A stretch of 42,559 nt of DNA. Source: Candidatus Jordarchaeum sp. LHC_1308. Its GTDB lineage: Archaea > Asgardarchaeota > Jordiarchaeia > Jordiarchaeales > Freyrarchaeaceae. The notes under the pieces are model-generated. The model saw only the letters and a program-made list of their open reading frames with translations, had not been told where the DNA came from and searched no databases. Positions 4,261-26,259 of this stretch are shown here, piece after piece (positions within the stretch are counted from its first letter, which is position 1; every line of letters begins with the position of its first letter). The stretch covers positions 1-42,559 of the forward strand of contig JAHLWX010000006.1 of assembly GCA_019057675.1 (NCBI GenBank), in the 5' to 3' direction. A program made the position numbers and the translations under genes.

Positions 4261-5436
4261 CTATCTCAGTTTGCTATAAACTCTATTAGTTATTTCTTTA
4301 AGCTTCTCTACGCATTGTTCAGGAGTAGGTGCAGTGAGCTGAACGCTGCATATAGGAACCCCTTCGTCGACTACTGTCCCCGGCTTTGTTATGTCGTAAA
4401 TGTAAGGCATATCGCCTAAGTCAGGAATAACTGCTTTCTTTTTAGCGTATATTACTCCCTTTACAGCAAACCCCTTAATGTCGATTTTTCTTGGAAGATT
4501 TCCATGATATGCCTCGATGTGTTTTTCAACAATGTTCATTCCTGTTACCATGGATACACATTCCATTGTCCCCTGAAATCTCGGGTTAACCTCTATGAAA
4601 AATGGTTCTCCCTCCCTTAGTATGAAATCAATCCCGTTAGAACCAACGAGTCCTAAAAACTCGCATATTTCCTCAGCAACCTTACCTACGACTTTGCAAA
4701 CATTTTCCGACTCGTGAGGAACTATGTTCCCACAATAAATGAATTCTTTCCCCCCAAGCCAAGGCACTCCTATCAATTGTCTGTTGACTGTTAATGTAAC
4801 AGCTCTTTTACCATCACTCAAAACGGAAGCACTTATGTCCTCTCCTACAACGTACTCCTGAACGATGACCCTACCTTCCCCCCTACATAAGTTGAAGAAT
4901 TTTTTAACCTCCTCCTTATTACGGGCTAAATGCACTCCAAGTCCTCCTCCCCCCGCCTCCCGCCTCACTACAACAGGAAATCCCAATTCACGAGCGGCGA
5001 CAATAGCCTCCTCGCAATTTTCAACAGCAACTGTTTCCGGAACATTAATTTTCCTCGTTCTTAATGCCCTGTAAAGCTCTATTTTGTCTCTTGCCTTCCT
5101 GATCATGGAAGGTGTATTCCCAAGTATAGGTGCAACTTCCTGTATTCTTTCCAAGCAATCCCACTTGTCGTCAAGTCCGCTTCCGATAAGAACTCCATCG
5201 ATATCGTGCTTTTGAGCCATTTGATGGGATAACTGGACAGCTACTTTGGCAAAATCGGTATGAGACCCGGCATGCTCCCTTACCACAGCAACGTCATCAA
5301 CCCAACTGTAAATGTCGACATCCCCCCAGTAATCTACAGCAAAGACGCGAAACCCGCACATCCTCGCTTGAGCGGCTATAGGTCTCGCGTTAAAACCAAC
5401 AACAAGCAAGCTTTCCATCATTACACCACTATGCAT
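4261..5436 (-). CDS. ATP-grasp family carboligase-like protein
   Basis: ATP-grasp signatures GFPVVVRREAGGGGLGVHLA, VIVQEYVVGEDISASVLSDG, FFIEVNPRFQGTMECV. Confidence 0.8.
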   Translation of the reverse strand: MHSGVMMESLLVVGFNARPIAAQARMCGFRVFAVDYWGDVDIYSWVDDVAVVREHAGSHTDFAKVAVQLSHQMAQKHDIDGVLIGSGLDDKWDCLERIQEVAPILGNTPSMIRKARDKIELYRALRTRKINVPETVAVENCEEAIVAARELGFPVVVRREAGGGGLGVHLARNKEEVKKFFNLCRGEGRVIVQEYVVGEDISASVLSDGKRAVTLTVNRQLIGVPWLGGKEFIYCGNIVPHESENVCKVVGKVAEEICEFLGLVGSNGIDFILREGEPFFIEVNPRFQGTMECVSMVTGMNIVEKHIEAYHGNLPRKIDIKGFAVKGVIYAKKKAVIPDLGDMPYIYDITKPGTVVDEGVPICSVQLTAPTPEQCVEKLKEITNRVYSKLR

Positions 5437-5516
5437 TCACTAAAAACTAAGTACTAAATAACCTCTCTTGCTTCTTTTCTAATAGTTGAACATAAATAAG
5501 AGTGGGAATTATTTAA

Positions 5517-6251
5517 TCACTTATCAGTAAGTAGTTTTTCTACATTATCCACTATTTTTTTAACCTTCAAAAGGTACTCTCCTATCTTCCTTTCTTTACT
5601 TACTCCTACTGCTAGCACTCTACTTTGTGGGAGCTTATACAGTATTATGATGGAATCATCGCCTACTATAACGGAGTACTCGCTTTCATCCTCTTTAGCA
5701 AGCTTGTCGCAAACCATCGAAACAGCACTTAGCATCCCTGTTGACGTCACATAATCTAATGAAGGGTAGACATCTAGAGGCATACCTTCAATCGTTAAAA
5801 CGGCAGCCATAAACGCCTCCGGAATTTCCTTCTTAACCATATATAGTATGCTACCTTCCTCGTAACTCGTCGCCTCTTCTATGGCTGCCAACTGGATGGA
5901 AGCTGCCTTAACGCGAGACACTAGTGTTTCTATCCCCTCCAGCTCCACAGCATCTCTGTCGACAAAAACCGCCAAGTTCATTCGCATTCCAACAGGAACA
6001 CTAATTACAACGGTCGTCTTAGACTTCGTTAACACGTAATCCAATTCTTTCCTAGCGAAACCATGAAGAACTTGGGAAGACATGGACGAGAGTGATGCAA
6101 GGATAGGCGCAGCACTCTCCTCCACCTTGCCGACGCTCATCCTCGAGAATCCCTCTTTGGTTGTCAGGATCGCTCCCCTCATACCGGCGCCCTCAATAAG
6201 TCCATCTAAAATTTTTTTCATTTCCTTCTCAGAGTTCATATAAGTCACCAC
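5517..6251 (-). CDS. Tandem Roadblock/LC7 (profilin-like) domain protein
   Basis: Two consecutive alpha/beta repeats: GLIEGAGMRGAILTTKEGF...VVISVPVGMRMNLAVFVDRDA...VSRVKAASIQL and EIPEAFMAAVLTIEGMPLDVYPSLDYV...SIIILYKLPQSRVLAVGVSKERKIGEYLLKVKKIV. Confidence 0.6.
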   Translation of the reverse strand: MVTYMNSEKEMKKILDGLIEGAGMRGAILTTKEGFSRMSVGKVEESAAPILASLSSMSSQVLHGFARKELDYVLTKSKTTVVISVPVGMRMNLAVFVDRDAVELEGIETLVSRVKAASIQLAAIEEATSYEEGSILYMVKKEIPEAFMAAVLTIEGMPLDVYPSLDYVTSTGMLSAVSMVCDKLAKEDESEYSVIVGDDSIIILYKLPQSRVLAVGVSKERKIGEYLLKVKKIVDNVEKLLTDK

Positions 6252-6302
6252 TTTTTATTTGAGAAACAATAATAGTATCCCCTTGCCTCTTTTAATTTAC
6301 TG

Positions 6303-7037
6303 GTGATCCGCTTGGAAATAGTGTTTCTTGGTACTGCCGCCAGCATACCGACCCCGACCAGAAGTCTCCCATCAGTCTTAGTAGACGAAGAATTGCTGGT
6401 AGACTGCGGTGAGGGTGCTACTCAGAGACTTTTATCAGCAGGGTCTCTAGACACCATTAAACGCGTGATAATAACACATAGCCACCTAGACCACTCGGCT
6501 GGAATAGCCACTTTAATATGGACCTTATGGCTTCGTGGAAAAAGAAATCCTCTTATCGTCAGTGGTCCAAGTTATGTAAAAGACTTAGTGTTCTCCCTCT
6601 TGAAAGAGTTTGGAACACCTCTAGAAAGATTAACGTTTAGCATCGAATATAAAGAATCCTTTGAAGACGTGAAGTTCGCATCCACGGATCATCACCCTGA
6701 AACATTTGCCCTAAAAGTCGAGAAAGGAAACGCGAGGATATGTTACTCAAGTGACACGGCGCCATGCAACTCGGTGATTAACTTAGCACGTGGTTGCGAC
6801 GTTCTAATTCATGAAGCAACATTCCTCAACAATGAAAGACATCTTGCACATATGCTTAAACATAGCACAGCAGGAGACGCAGGAAGAATTGCAAGTGAAG
6901 CGCGGGTCAAAAAACTTGTGCTTTTCCACTGGCCTTGGACACTTGAAGGAAGAGAACACCTCTTAGTGAAGGAAGCTGAGGCTTTCTTTAATGGTGAAGT
7001 CATACTTGCACATGACCTTGAAACAATCTCGCTTTGA
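6303..7037 (+). CDS. Ribonuclease Z-like metallo-beta-lactamase
   Basis: GTAASIPTPTRSLPSVLV, LLVDCGEGATQRLL, ITHSHLDHSAGIATL, YSSDTAPC, LIHEATF, LVLFHW. Confidence 0.87.
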   Translation: MIRLEIVFLGTAASIPTPTRSLPSVLVDEELLVDCGEGATQRLLSAGSLDTIKRVIITHSHLDHSAGIATLIWTLWLRGKRNPLIVSGPSYVKDLVFSLLKEFGTPLERLTFSIEYKESFEDVKFASTDHHPETFALKVEKGNARICYSSDTAPCNSVINLARGCDVLIHEATFLNNERHLAHMLKHSTAGDAGRIASEARVKKLVLFHWPWTLEGREHLLVKEAEAFFNGEVILAHDLETISL

Positions 7038-22531: not shown

Positions 22532-23041
22532 ATGATAGTGAATGTTTACATAATGAATAAGAACGGCGTCTGCCTATGTAAACGTACATATAGCGAAATA
22601 ACGAGGTATCAAACAGACTCCGACGGCCTTCTTCTAACAGGTTTCATGAGCGCACTAATGTCGTTTACCGAGCAGATCGGAGAAGCAAAACTTGAAGTAA
22701 TAAGGACAGACAAGTATGTCTTCGTTTGCAATACAAGCGACCCTATAGCAGTCATAATTATAGCTACCGGAGAAAGAGAAGAAACAATAAAGGAAGTTGC
22801 TGCGGCCATCCTAAAACGTTTCAAATCCATCTATGAACACGAACTTGAAGAATGGGATGGCAATATAGAAAAGTTTCAAGCTTTCTCAAAAGAAATAGAT
22901 GAAATAATAAACTCTAGGCTGAAAAAGCAAAAAATGAAGGAACTTATACTGGATAACAACGCGGACGCAAAAAGGATTGCGGAGCTTATAATTTCCGAGA
23001 TCGATCAGCAACTTCAAAAAATAATAGCGAAAAGTATCTAA
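22532..23041 (+). CDS. Longin-like (profilin-fold) domain protein
   Basis: MIVNVYIMNKNGVCLCKRTYSE..DGLLLTGFMSALMSFTEQIGEAKLEVIRTDKYVFVCNTSDPIAVIIIATGE parallels the N-terminus of the 12715-14673 product. ATG at 22532 chosen over the 22349 start of the ORF track because the upstream extension looks non-coding. Confidence 0.65.
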   Translation: MIVNVYIMNKNGVCLCKRTYSEITRYQTDSDGLLLTGFMSALMSFTEQIGEAKLEVIRTDKYVFVCNTSDPIAVIIIATGEREETIKEVAAAILKRFKSIYEHELEEWDGNIEKFQAFSKEIDEIINSRLKKQKMKELILDNNADAKRIAELIISEIDQQLQKIIAKSI

Positions 23042-23295
23042 CCCGCCTTTTTCAGAAAAACCACTGTGATATTAGGAAACTCCTCTTTGATCACGTTGAC
23101 CACTTCGTTCAAATGCATTTCTCCCTCGCTCCGAAGAAGAATAAACATGTAATTCCACGCAGGAAAAAGAGAGACGACACACACAAACCTTCCACCGTAC
23201 CTAATGTAATACTCGTAGTAATGCCTTCTGACCTTGTACCCCCGTTTTTCGAGTTTTAGCGTAATTCTGCTAAGCTTATCAGACTCCCTTATCAT
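23038..23295 (-). CDS. Hypothetical 85-aa protein
   Basis: Compact alpha/beta-looking ORF in line with the Roadblock and V4R genes on the same strand; stop overlaps the longin gene stop by 4 nt. Confidence 0.6.
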   Translation of the reverse strand: MIRESDKLSRITLKLEKRGYKVRRHYYEYYIRYGGRFVCVVSLFPAWNYMFILLRSEGEMHLNEVVNVIKEEFPNITVVFLKKAG

Positions 23296-23316
23296 TCTTA
23301 CCCCTTATAATACCCA

Positions 23317-23781
23317 TCATGTTTTTCTTATCCTAAAAATGCACTTATCCGCCCCCTCACTCCTCAAATTTTCCGCTTCGACCTCAACATTGCCGAGAGC
23401 TTTACGGGCTGCTTCCTCTATCACACCATGAGTATAAGTACAGTAAAACTTACTTGCAATATCGAAGCCCAGTTTTTCAAACGGGCAAACAGTAAACATC
23501 ACTTTCATTTCTCCACCACTTCCCTCAAACGAGACGTTATTCGTTCCAATTACCGGAGCTATAACGTCTGTTGCTAAAAGCTCCACAATCCTCTCAAGTG
23601 TCCAAGAATTCACATTATACTTCTCCTTTAGTCTCGCCTCAACTCGCTCGCCTACAGACTCACCAATTAGTCTGAAAACAGTTCTAACAGTTTCCCTTCC
23701 AGCTATAGCGTCGAGCCTGCTCATCAAAAGCGCAAATACGCGAGTAATAAACCTGTGAAGTCTCTCCAAGTCCTCAGACAA
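23317..23781 (-). CDS. V4R-like (Bet3/TRAPP-clan) domain protein
   Basis: FRLIGESVGERV near the N-terminus and C-terminal SKFYCTYTHGVIEEAARKALGNVEVEAENLRSEGADKCIFRI match the V4R pattern (yC.f..G....a..G.v.v.e....G...C.F.i). Confidence 0.65.
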   Translation of the reverse strand: MSEDLERLHRFITRVFALLMSRLDAIAGRETVRTVFRLIGESVGERVEARLKEKYNVNSWTLERIVELLATDVIAPVIGTNNVSFEGSGGEMKVMFTVCPFEKLGFDIASKFYCTYTHGVIEEAARKALGNVEVEAENLRSEGADKCIFRIRKT

Positions 23782-23793
23782 AAATTCTACCCC

Positions 23794-24180
23794 CTAGTAA
23801 AGTAGTTTTTTGATTTCCTCTACTGCCTTACTCATTTCCCAAAAAACAAGACCCAAATTCGCGTCGCTTCTAGCTAAGACCGTCAAAAGATGAGCGTCGC
23901 CTATGCTCATAACTACAGTCTGTCCCTCACTACCAGTTATCAAAACTCGTTGAAGCATACCCTGATCAAGCTCAGCTACGGTTCTCTTACCGATACCCAA
24001 AGCGGCCACAGCCATTGCAGCCACAAGCCGAGGATCAGCAACGTCCGAAGGCAAGTCGGAAGCCATAAGCATGCCCTCACTTGTTACCACGGCACTACCA
24101 ACAACGTCAGAGGCCCGTCGCTCTAAATCCTTCAAAACGCCAACGAGCTTCTTTCTAACATCGTCAGCCACCAGAAACAC
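23794..24180 (-). CDS. Roadblock/LC7 domain protein (MglB-like)
   Basis: DVVGSAVVTSEGMLMASDLPSDVADPRLVAAMAVAALGIGKRTVAELDQGMLQRVLITGSEGQTVVMSIGDAHLLTVLARSDANLGLVFWEMSKAVEEI is a textbook Roadblock pattern. Confidence 0.88.
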   Translation of the reverse strand: MFLVADDVRKKLVGVLKDLERRASDVVGSAVVTSEGMLMASDLPSDVADPRLVAAMAVAALGIGKRTVAELDQGMLQRVLITGSEGQTVVMSIGDAHLLTVLARSDANLGLVFWEMSKAVEEIKKLLY

Positions 24181-24372: not shown

Positions 24373-24529
24373 TGGTGGGCCCGGCGAGAGACCCGGCAGT
24401 GAACTTTCGGACTCGCTGGACAGCCCACAGCCGACCACTCGCGACCTCCCGGTTTCAAACCCGCCGCAAAGCGAGTTATCAGCCGGGCGCTTTAGTCGTT
24501 AAGCTCTAACCAGGCTGAGCTACGGGCCC
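24373..24529 (-). tRNA. tRNA-Ile(GAU) with several insertions (introns), encoded CCA
   Basis: Minus strand: GGGCCCG-TA-GCTC-AGCCTGGTTA-GAGC [14 nt] G-CCCGG-CTGATA [23 nt] A-CCGGG-AGGTC ... CTCGC-CGGGCCC-A-CCA. The 37/38 insertion ACTCGCTTTGCGGCGGGTTTGAA folds as a hairpin in the canonical intron position. The T-arm is also interrupted. Confidence 0.75.
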
Positions 24530-24726
24530 ACTCAGTTTGAGCATTTCCCACGGATTCTTTTATGGTTTTCGGTTTACTATCTGAAAGAGCATCTAGCGCT
24601 TTCTTCCAAACAATCTTCTCAACGCATTACTCCATTTCTAAACCTGTTGTGAAAGAGTAAATTTTATAACAAGTTCCACTTGATGTAGCTTCGAAACCAA
24701 AAGAAAAAAATAGGATGTGATGATTT

Positions 24727-26259
24727 ATGGTCGACGCATTTCCATGGTGGACTGAAGAACAAAAAGCATTCCAAAAAGAGTTGAGCGAATACGTCAGCAA
24801 AATCCTGCCTCAAGCTGAGGAAGCATATTGGGAACGCCGCTTCCCATGGGATCTCATCAAGGAGATAGGAAATAAAGGATACTTCGGCGCCGGGGTTCCG
24901 AAAGAATACGGAGGACGTGGCCTCGGAATCACGGGATGCTGCATAGCAGCAGAACAACTCGGCAGACTCTACTGCATAGGCCACATGTTCGTGACCTCAC
25001 ACATCGGCGGGTATCATCAAATACTTTATCATGGGACTGAAGAGCAGAAGAAGAAGTGGCTTTCCGGTCTGGCTAAGGGCGTGCTCGGCGCGGTCTGTAT
25101 AACTGAGCCGTACTATGGATCAGACGCTGCGGGAATAGAAACGGTAGCGGTTCGTGAGGGAGACGAATATGTTATAACCGGTAAGAAAAGATTTATCACA
25201 GCTGGCGGTGTTGCCAACAGATACCTTCTTTACGCAAGGACCAGTGATGATCCCGAAGATAAGCGGCGATACAGGCATCTTTCAGCCTTCGTCCTTGAGA
25301 AAGGCATGCCTGGTTTCTCTCTTGAGAAGATAAACGAACTTATAGGCTTCGAGAACGTTCCAAATGCATACCTTCACCTTGACCATGTTCGTGTGCCTGT
25401 AGAAAACAGAATAGGCAATGAAGGAGACGGCTGGAACATAATGATGGGTGGACTGAACTTCGAGAGAACTTTATGTGCCGCTGTCACCTTAGGAGGAATG
25501 GTCGAGGCACTGAGATGCATCTACAATTACCTCCAAAGAAGAGTACAGTTTGGCATGAGAACAATAGACCTCGTCAACAACCAGTTCGCAATTGCAGACA
25601 TGATCGCAGACTACAGGATCGCTCGACTCGTAACCTTCTACTCTGCTTACACGATGGATATTGGTCTTAACATGCCAGTGGAGGCAGCTGCAGCAAAGAT
25701 GTTTACATCAGATTCATCCCTGAGAATGGGAATCAACGGAGTCCAGATAATGGGCGGAGACGGCCTGACCAAATTCTACCCGGTTGAGAGGCTTGTAAGA
25801 GAATCAAAAATAGGGCAGATCATAGCCGGAACAAACGAGATAATGAAAGTTATCATATATAGATTGGGCCCACTTGCCATGTACGAAGACTTAATATACC
25901 CATGGAGATTCACGCTACACCCACGCCTCCAAGTCCCAATGCCAACATTCGAGAAATCACCATTCGCAGGACAAGAGGTCAATGAGGAAAATATGCTCAA
26001 GCTCTTCGCGTTAAACTACAGAATAAACCCGGGACTCTACTTGACAATAGAAGACATAGCGAAGGAGTTCGAAGCACCACAAGAAAAAATCCTAGAAGTC
26101 CTCCAAGCCATGGAGGCGAAGGGACTTGCGGCACTCTTCAAGGATCGCAGAGGAAGAATACTCATGGCAAGGCCAACATACAAGGCCATCATGGAAGCAG
26201 CACCCCCAGAATACTACAAGTGGTTCCCGAGTTGGTATCGGGACGAAGACAAGTTCTAA
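24727..26259 (+). CDS. Acyl-CoA dehydrogenase with C-terminal winged-helix-like extension
   Basis: ACITEPYYGSDAAGIETVA-type motif, GKKRFITAGGVANRYLLYART, GVQIMGGDGLTKFYPVERLVRESKIGQIIAGTNEIMKVII; about 100-residue C-terminal extension after the ACAD fold. Confidence 0.9.
   Translation: MVDAFPWWTEEQKAFQKELSEYVSKILPQAEEAYWERRFPWDLIKEIGNKGYFGAGVPKEYGGRGLGITGCCIAAEQLGRLYCIGHMFVTSHIGGYHQILYHGTEEQKKKWLSGLAKGVLGAVCITEPYYGSDAAGIETVAVREGDEYVITGKKRFITAGGVANRYLLYARTSDDPEDKRRYRHLSAFVLEKGMPGFSLEKINELIGFENVPNAYLHLDHVRVPVENRIGNEGDGWNIMMGGLNFERTLCAAVTLGGMVEALRCIYNYLQRRVQFGMRTIDLVNNQFAIADMIADYRIARLVTFYSAYTMDIGLNMPVEAAAAKMFTSDSSLRMGINGVQIMGGDGLTKFYPVERLVRESKIGQIIAGTNEIMKVIIYRLGPLAMYEDLIYPWRFTLHPRLQVPMPTFEKSPFAGQEVNEENMLKLFALNYRINPGLYLTIEDIAKEFEAPQEKILEVLQAMEAKGLAALFKDRRGRILMARPTYKAIMEAAPPEYYKWFPSWYRDEDKF

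Follow-up and report, generated by a model that had tools for sequence, protein, structure and literature searches.

A Jordarchaeia locus and a conserved Asgard gene cluster of roadblock, Bet3/V4R-like and longin proteins

Gene content of the Jordarchaeia locus

The window (the whole 42,559-nt stretch of DNA analyzed here) corresponds to contig C6 of a genome of 1.9 Mb and 84% completeness (G000; G001–G003 denote genomes of the same genus). The host is an Asgard archaeon whose nearest named relative is the Candidatus Jordarchaeia MAG QC4 (contig JAHAWR010000020.1); the Bet3-like proteins of the two are 80% identical. Freyarchaeia is an alternative name of Jordarchaeia (PMC11291895). A first-pass annotation had placed four small ORFs between positions 22532 and 24180, and all four are present at those coordinates and on the strands given. 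The features of the locus are as follows (RB, roadblock).

22532..23041, plus strand: longin-domain protein of 169 aa whose C-terminal tail is helical (Pfam Sybindin, AlphaFold2 topology, Foldseek, equal position in G002 and G003)
23038..23295, minus strand: orphan ORF, 85 aa, following the V4R-like gene after 21 nt and with an AAGGGG that resembles a Shine-Dalgarno sequence; no Pfam match
23317..23781, minus strand: Bet3/TRAPPC3-V4R superfamily protein, 154 aa, with a TTG start at 23781 (AlphaFold2, Foldseek, profile match, family alignment)
23789..23794, minus strand: GGGGG run resembling a Shine-Dalgarno sequence, abutting the RB stop codon and about 8 nt ahead of the TTG that starts the V4R-like gene
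23794..24171, minus strand: roadblock/LC7 protein, 125 aa, first gene of the RB-V4R pair (PF03259; orthologous position in G002 and G003)

The longin start at 22532 is an ATG that matches the homologues, and the frame is open back to 22349. The RB frame is open to 24180; homologues beginning MSEDVRKRL or MAEDVRKRL favor the second GTG, and 24171 rather than 24180 is the probable start. The RB and V4R-like genes lie on the minus strand with 12 nt between them. The longin gene is convergent with this pair, not co-directional, and meets the orphan tail to tail. Because it occupies the opposite strand, only the RB-V4R pair (plus the orphan) can be an operon in the window. The order longin > < V4R < RB is identical in G002 and G003, where the longins are 72% and 64% identical to that of the window. 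The flanking genes are conserved in these two genomes as well, so conservation within the genus is weak evidence. Neither an Rfam match nor a phage family match was obtained.

Elsewhere the genome encodes ten further V4R Pfam matches, and its longin matches number nine. As one would expect of Asgard archaea, 51 of 59 related genomes also contain longin matches. A genome-wide search for Ras-like GTPases, proposed in the first-pass annotation, returned 12 Ras-family matches, all at loci other than the RB-V4R pair of the window.

Two observations concern sequence near the locus. The segment at window positions 24378-24530 (minus strand) reads like a tRNA-Ile(GAU) gene (GGGCCCGTAGCTCAGCCTGGTTAGAGC ... 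CCCGGCTGATAA ... CGCCGGGCCCACCA) with about three inserts, in the D arm, the anticodon loop and the T loop; ARAGORN found no tRNA there, even when anticodon-loop introns were allowed. At 24727-26259 (plus strand) is an acyl-CoA dehydrogenase with a weak C-terminal match to a TrmB-like winged helix (1.2e-3, below the cut-off), which would be an unusual fusion if real.

Folds of the encoded proteins

The 154-aa protein had been read as V4R-like from its sequence. In Pfam hmmscan it matches MetOD1 (PF18546, 2.4e-6, cut-off met), with no V4R (PF02830) match over the cut-off; a TRAPP (PF04051) match was found neither by hmmscan nor by a genome search with that model. Because the Pfam V4R and TRAPP models both miss the protein, we replace the name V4R by Bet3/V4R superfamily. 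The fold call itself holds, although PF02830 and PF04051 are silent. The AlphaFold2 model is good (pLDDT 88.8, pTM 0.81) and has the Bet3 fold, a helical layer plus a four-stranded sheet. Its top 27 Foldseek matches are all Bet3/TRAPPC3 or TRAPP partners, with E-values from 4e-7 and TM-scores of about 0.7. The V4R domain of PoxR ranks after this Bet3 group (6e-4) at a similar TM-score of 0.67. When the family profile was compared with the PDB, the only matches below E 0.1 were two Thorarchaeota TRAPPC3 structures (7yh2, E 0.003; the other, 0.011).

Across the family alignment three cysteines, C99, C114 and C147, are invariant, and they align with three of the four in the Thor-TRAPPC3 motif, a four-cysteine zinc site. 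The palmitoylated cysteine of eukaryotic Bet3 is Cys68 in mouse Bet3. Because cysteines occur only at 99, 114 and 147, the V4R-like protein has no candidate palmitoylation site. Glycine pairs (GxxxG) in helices 2 and 5 are a Bet3 feature (PMC2253512). Here the first pair is invariant (G40, G44), and of the second the family has G119 alone, with serine in f2 genomes. Bet3-like proteins match the sensor-type domains MetOD1, ATC_hydrolase and FilR1 better than Pfam TRAPP, and for a Loki family member the ATC_hydrolase match is above the cut-off. Proteins of the Bet3/V4R superfamily accommodate hydrophobic ligands or acyl chains in cavities (PMC10933270, PMC2253512).

For the window longin, Pfam hmmscan gave a match to Sybindin, the TRAPP longin family (PF04099, 1.6e-6, 28.6 bits versus a gathering score of 25). 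Its AlphaFold2 model is weak (pLDDT 64) and has the longin topology b1-b2-a1-b3-b4-b5-a2-a3. The first Foldseek matches, save one poorly superposed COPI match, are Sec22b (3.4e-4), Bet5/TRAPPC1 (8.5e-4) and Sedlin (9.5e-4). The initial longin assignment holds. The third protein is, as annotated, a clear Roadblock/LC7 member (PF03259, 4e-10, 39.7 bits versus a gathering score of 23), and its profile matches solved roadblock proteins (7f8m, 1e-21; 9jue, 4e-21).

A gene cluster across Asgard archaea

A profile search identified strong matches to the Bet3-like family in 25 of 232 Asgard genomes; counting weak matches above about 1e-6 as well brings the tally to 47. When 85,488 species genomes were scanned with a pattern, an approach of limited sensitivity, only Asgard loci were recovered (Jord-, Loki- and Helarchaeota). 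The RB gene lies immediately upstream, on the same strand, of 25 of the 28 Bet3-like family genes (22 of 25 genomes, eight family-level lineages), typically at a spacing of -8 to +18 nt. Based on 38 RBs per Lokiarchaeon (PMC10933270) and 5,119 proteins (PMC9834061), the chance of such adjacency is below 1% per gene, so with 25 of 28 genes arranged in this way the RB–Bet3-like linkage is beyond chance. The accompanying binomial value makes no correction for shared ancestry. The neighborhood conservation that the first-pass annotation proposed to check thus extends far beyond the window. Exceptions are two f2 Jordarchaeia genomes and G188, where the Bet3-like gene has neither an RB nor a longin alongside.

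In all 19 non-Jordarchaeia genomes with an RB-V4R pair, the cluster also encodes a protein of about 248 aa that is a longin–RB fusion. The N-terminal half of this protein is of longin type (hhalign 99% to the family of the window longin), and an RB makes up the C-terminal half (95%). This is the form in which the longin occurs at Loki- and Helarchaeota loci, usually on the same strand and inverted once (G140). A further gene, encoding a protein family of about 138 aa with no known relatives, is present in 18 of the 19 clusters; in the nineteenth (G116) the contig ends there. Of the 232 genomes, precisely these 19 match the 138-aa profile strongly, G116 on another contig; beyond them there are only two weak matches at about 1e-6. 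The 138-aa family (L045 9292-9702, L087 5532-5981 and homologues) carries a conserved KGLPLVY-type motif. By eye the protein looks roadblock-like, but profile comparison gave nothing and we did not adopt that assignment; in most members its N-terminal amphipathic helix fell short of significance.

Gene order varies between RB-V4R-fusion-138 and RB-V4R-138-fusion, RB–V4R is duplicated in three genomes, and the flanks are lineage specific (PHP/DUF3604, EamA, epimerase, subtilase, CDP-alcohol transferase, GH57, bacterial PH). Because order varies and flanks differ by lineage, the cluster is not one frozen stretch of chromosome. No GTPase gene was found in or beside the clusters among the flanks examined, nor among the window neighbors, where its absence had already been remarked upon.

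Trees of about 120 columns bear on how the Jordarchaeia genes relate to this cluster. The longin-domain tree leaves the window longin unplaced; its union with the fusion longins is neither supported nor rejected (p-AU 0.27), and union with the paralogous longin of a second convergent pair is nearly rejected (p-AU 0.07). In the RB tree, the non-Jordarchaeia cluster RBs form one group (99/96), and adding the Jordarchaeia RBs to it is neither supported nor rejected (p-AU 0.205). The second convergent longin > < RB pair lies at G000:C5 22489-23403 (L140; also L141, L142, L143) and is shared, together with its flanks, by G000 and G001–G003, the four genomes of the genus. Given the longin and RB tree results, we did not adopt the idea that this pair and the window locus arose by duplication of a block.

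The 85-aa orphan is a patchy Jordarchaeia family. A homologue at the matching place in G002 carries an in-frame TGA, no match was found in G003 or G001, and relatives in four f2 genomes lie elsewhere, beside unrelated genes and not V4R. The orphan also showed no match to the 138-aa family, to RB or to longin. It is probably an incidental passenger, outside the conserved cluster. Of the module originally proposed, the association of Bet3/V4R-like, longin and RB genes therefore stands as a conserved module; in the window the longin gene occupies the opposite strand, and the orphan is not a member. We regard the window locus as a Jordarchaeia, simplified form of a conserved Asgard cluster, RB - Bet3/V4R-like - longin, with the kinship of the window longin to the fusion putative.

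The same folds also occur together at other loci. At G000:C80 a canonical V4R gene (6206-6757) comes immediately after a longin–RB fusion (5432-6205). The fusion and canonical V4R pair is present in G001 too, and in G002 the locus reads as three genes, the middle one RB and the last V4R. This second longin-RB/V4R locus of the genus comprises G000:C80 5432-6757 (L170), L171 2964-4301 and L185 413-1722. Longin–V4R fusions of 303-325 aa were identified in the family f4 genomes G040 and G051 (L198 1480-2391 and L199 1489-2466, both minus strand), and a Heimdall longin–TRAPPC3 fusion has been published (PMC10933270). These independent pairings support a functional connection of Bet3/V4R, longin and RB that extends past a single cluster. 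In a separate arrangement, G000:C35 15204-17413 holds an RB / RB / MglA-like GTPase / RB cluster, seen in the Jordarchaeia genomes searched.

Possible function and relation to eukaryotic complexes

In MglB, Ragulator and the TRAPP core, dimers of RB and longin domains are platforms for binding small GTPases. The corresponding domains of the cluster proteins could form such a dimeric GTPase-binding surface. A dimer of the Bet3/V4R-like protein, with its ligand-binding fold, internal cavities and cysteine site, may then couple a hydrophobic ligand or the state of a membrane to the GTPase switch. Partner GTPases would be supplied in trans, and the 12 Ras-family matches in the genome are candidates. 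We give about even chances to this proposal, in which the cluster products assemble into a small platform regulating one of the many cellular Ras-like GTPases. We favor it because of the folds, the linkage within the cluster, the independent pairings and the Ras-family genes in the genome. Against it stand the lack of a GTPase gene within or next to the clusters examined, the opposite strand of the window longin and its putative kinship to the fusion longins, and the Bet3-like genes of two f2 genomes and G188, which have no RB or longin neighbors. In MK-D1, GTPase genes are reported to be generally not in operons with longin, RB or TRAPPC3-like regulators.

Three other explanations were weighed. 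The window longin might be a chance neighbor, an unrelated one of the nine genome longins, leaving RB-V4R alone as the functional pair. Its strand and its unplaced position in the tree fit such a reading, as does the abundance of longins and RBs in Asgard genomes; against this, a longin domain is in the cluster at all 19 non-Jordarchaeia RB-V4R loci, once in the opposite orientation (G140), and we consider chance somewhat unlikely. A role outside GTPase control is possible because the Bet3-like proteins match MetOD1, ATC_hydrolase and FilR1 better than Pfam TRAPP. Specifically, the Bet3/V4R-like protein may bind a hydrophobic metabolite while RB, longin and the 138-aa protein act as scaffolds or adaptors for another effector, such as a kinase, transcription factor or transporter. 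Besides the MetOD1 match and the ATC_hydrolase match of the Loki member, V4R domains are thought to be hydrophobic-ligand binders (PMC2253512), and Thor-TRAPPC3 has internal cavities and is a proposed ligand binder (PMC10933270). The clusters are also without a GTPase gene. However, the best-known role of RB and longin domains is as GTPase platforms, and at the loci examined the cluster has no recurrent kinase or regulator as a neighbor; overall we judge a ligand-sensing unit acting without a GTPase to be unlikely.

The platform reading also has a strong form, a true proto-TRAPP. Such a complex would be a TRAPP-like GEF with the eukaryotic core geometry, in which Bet3-type dimers stand on either side of a longin dimer, and would activate a Rab-like GTPase at membranes. 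The genes are linked, Bet3/TRAPPC3 comes first in Foldseek for the V4R-like model, and the window longin matches Sybindin, Bet5 and Sedlin. We nevertheless regard it as improbable, given that there is no Pfam TRAPP match and no candidate for the Bet3 palmitoylation cysteine, that TM-scores to Bet3 and to PoxR V4R are similar, and that roadblock subunits are absent from the TRAPP core described in PMC10933270.

The preferred reading, a GTPase-regulating platform, can be set beside known systems. Longins, RBs and TRAPPC3-like proteins of Asgard archaea, and their likeness to TRAPP and Ragulator, have already been described, with crystal structures (Tran et al. 2024, PMC10933270; PDB 7yh2, 7yh3). 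These proteins have the same three folds and come from the same phylum as the window cluster. Thor-TRAPPC3 is a distant relative of the window Bet3-like family, by the profile match and the three aligned cysteines reported above; compared with the PMC10933270 proteins, the window Bet3-like protein belongs to a separate orthologous family, in an RB / Bet3-like / longin(-RB) / 138-aa cluster. Among Asgard archaea the folds were known before; the conserved gene cluster appears undescribed in the open-access (PMC) papers searched on Asgard TRAPP, longin, roadblock and V4R proteins.

The eukaryotic TRAPP core (Bet3/TRAPPC3, TRAPPC5/C6, the longins Bet5/Trs23, Sedlin) combines Bet3-type and longin-type subunits, types that the cluster also encodes, and TRAPP proteins are the best structural matches of the Bet3-like protein and among the best of the longin. 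Unlike that core, the cluster adds a roadblock protein and a longin-RB fusion and has neither the Pfam TRAPP match nor the palmitoylation candidate. Ragulator/LAMTOR and bacterial MglB share with the cluster RB a family that serves as a Ras-like GTPase platform. Unlike in an MglA/MglB-type operon, the cluster RB has no adjoining GTPase gene, and its genomic partners are the Bet3-like protein and the longin. Prokaryotic V4R sensors (PF02830; PoxR) and MetOD1, ATC_hydrolase and FilR1 have the same fold superfamily and conserved cysteines; unlike prokaryotic V4R sensors, the Bet3-like protein is missed by the V4R Pfam model and adjoins an RB gene in 22 of 25 genomes.

The Bet3/TRAPPC3-like, longin and roadblock folds are the ones that eukaryotes use to control membrane-traffic switches. 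A hybrid complex of Bet3-like, longin and roadblock proteins might activate a Rab-like GTPase at an archaeal membrane, and the TRAPP and Ragulator platforms of eukaryotes could derive from such a hybrid; we think this quite unlikely. Asgard archaea hold dozens of longins, roadblocks and TRAPPC3-like proteins, and the cluster ties specific ones together. A Bet3-like protein, an RB, a longin–RB fusion and a 138-aa partner make up a defined set across several family-level lineages. With this defined gene set, the question of a pre-eukaryotic TRAPP-like complex becomes directly testable.
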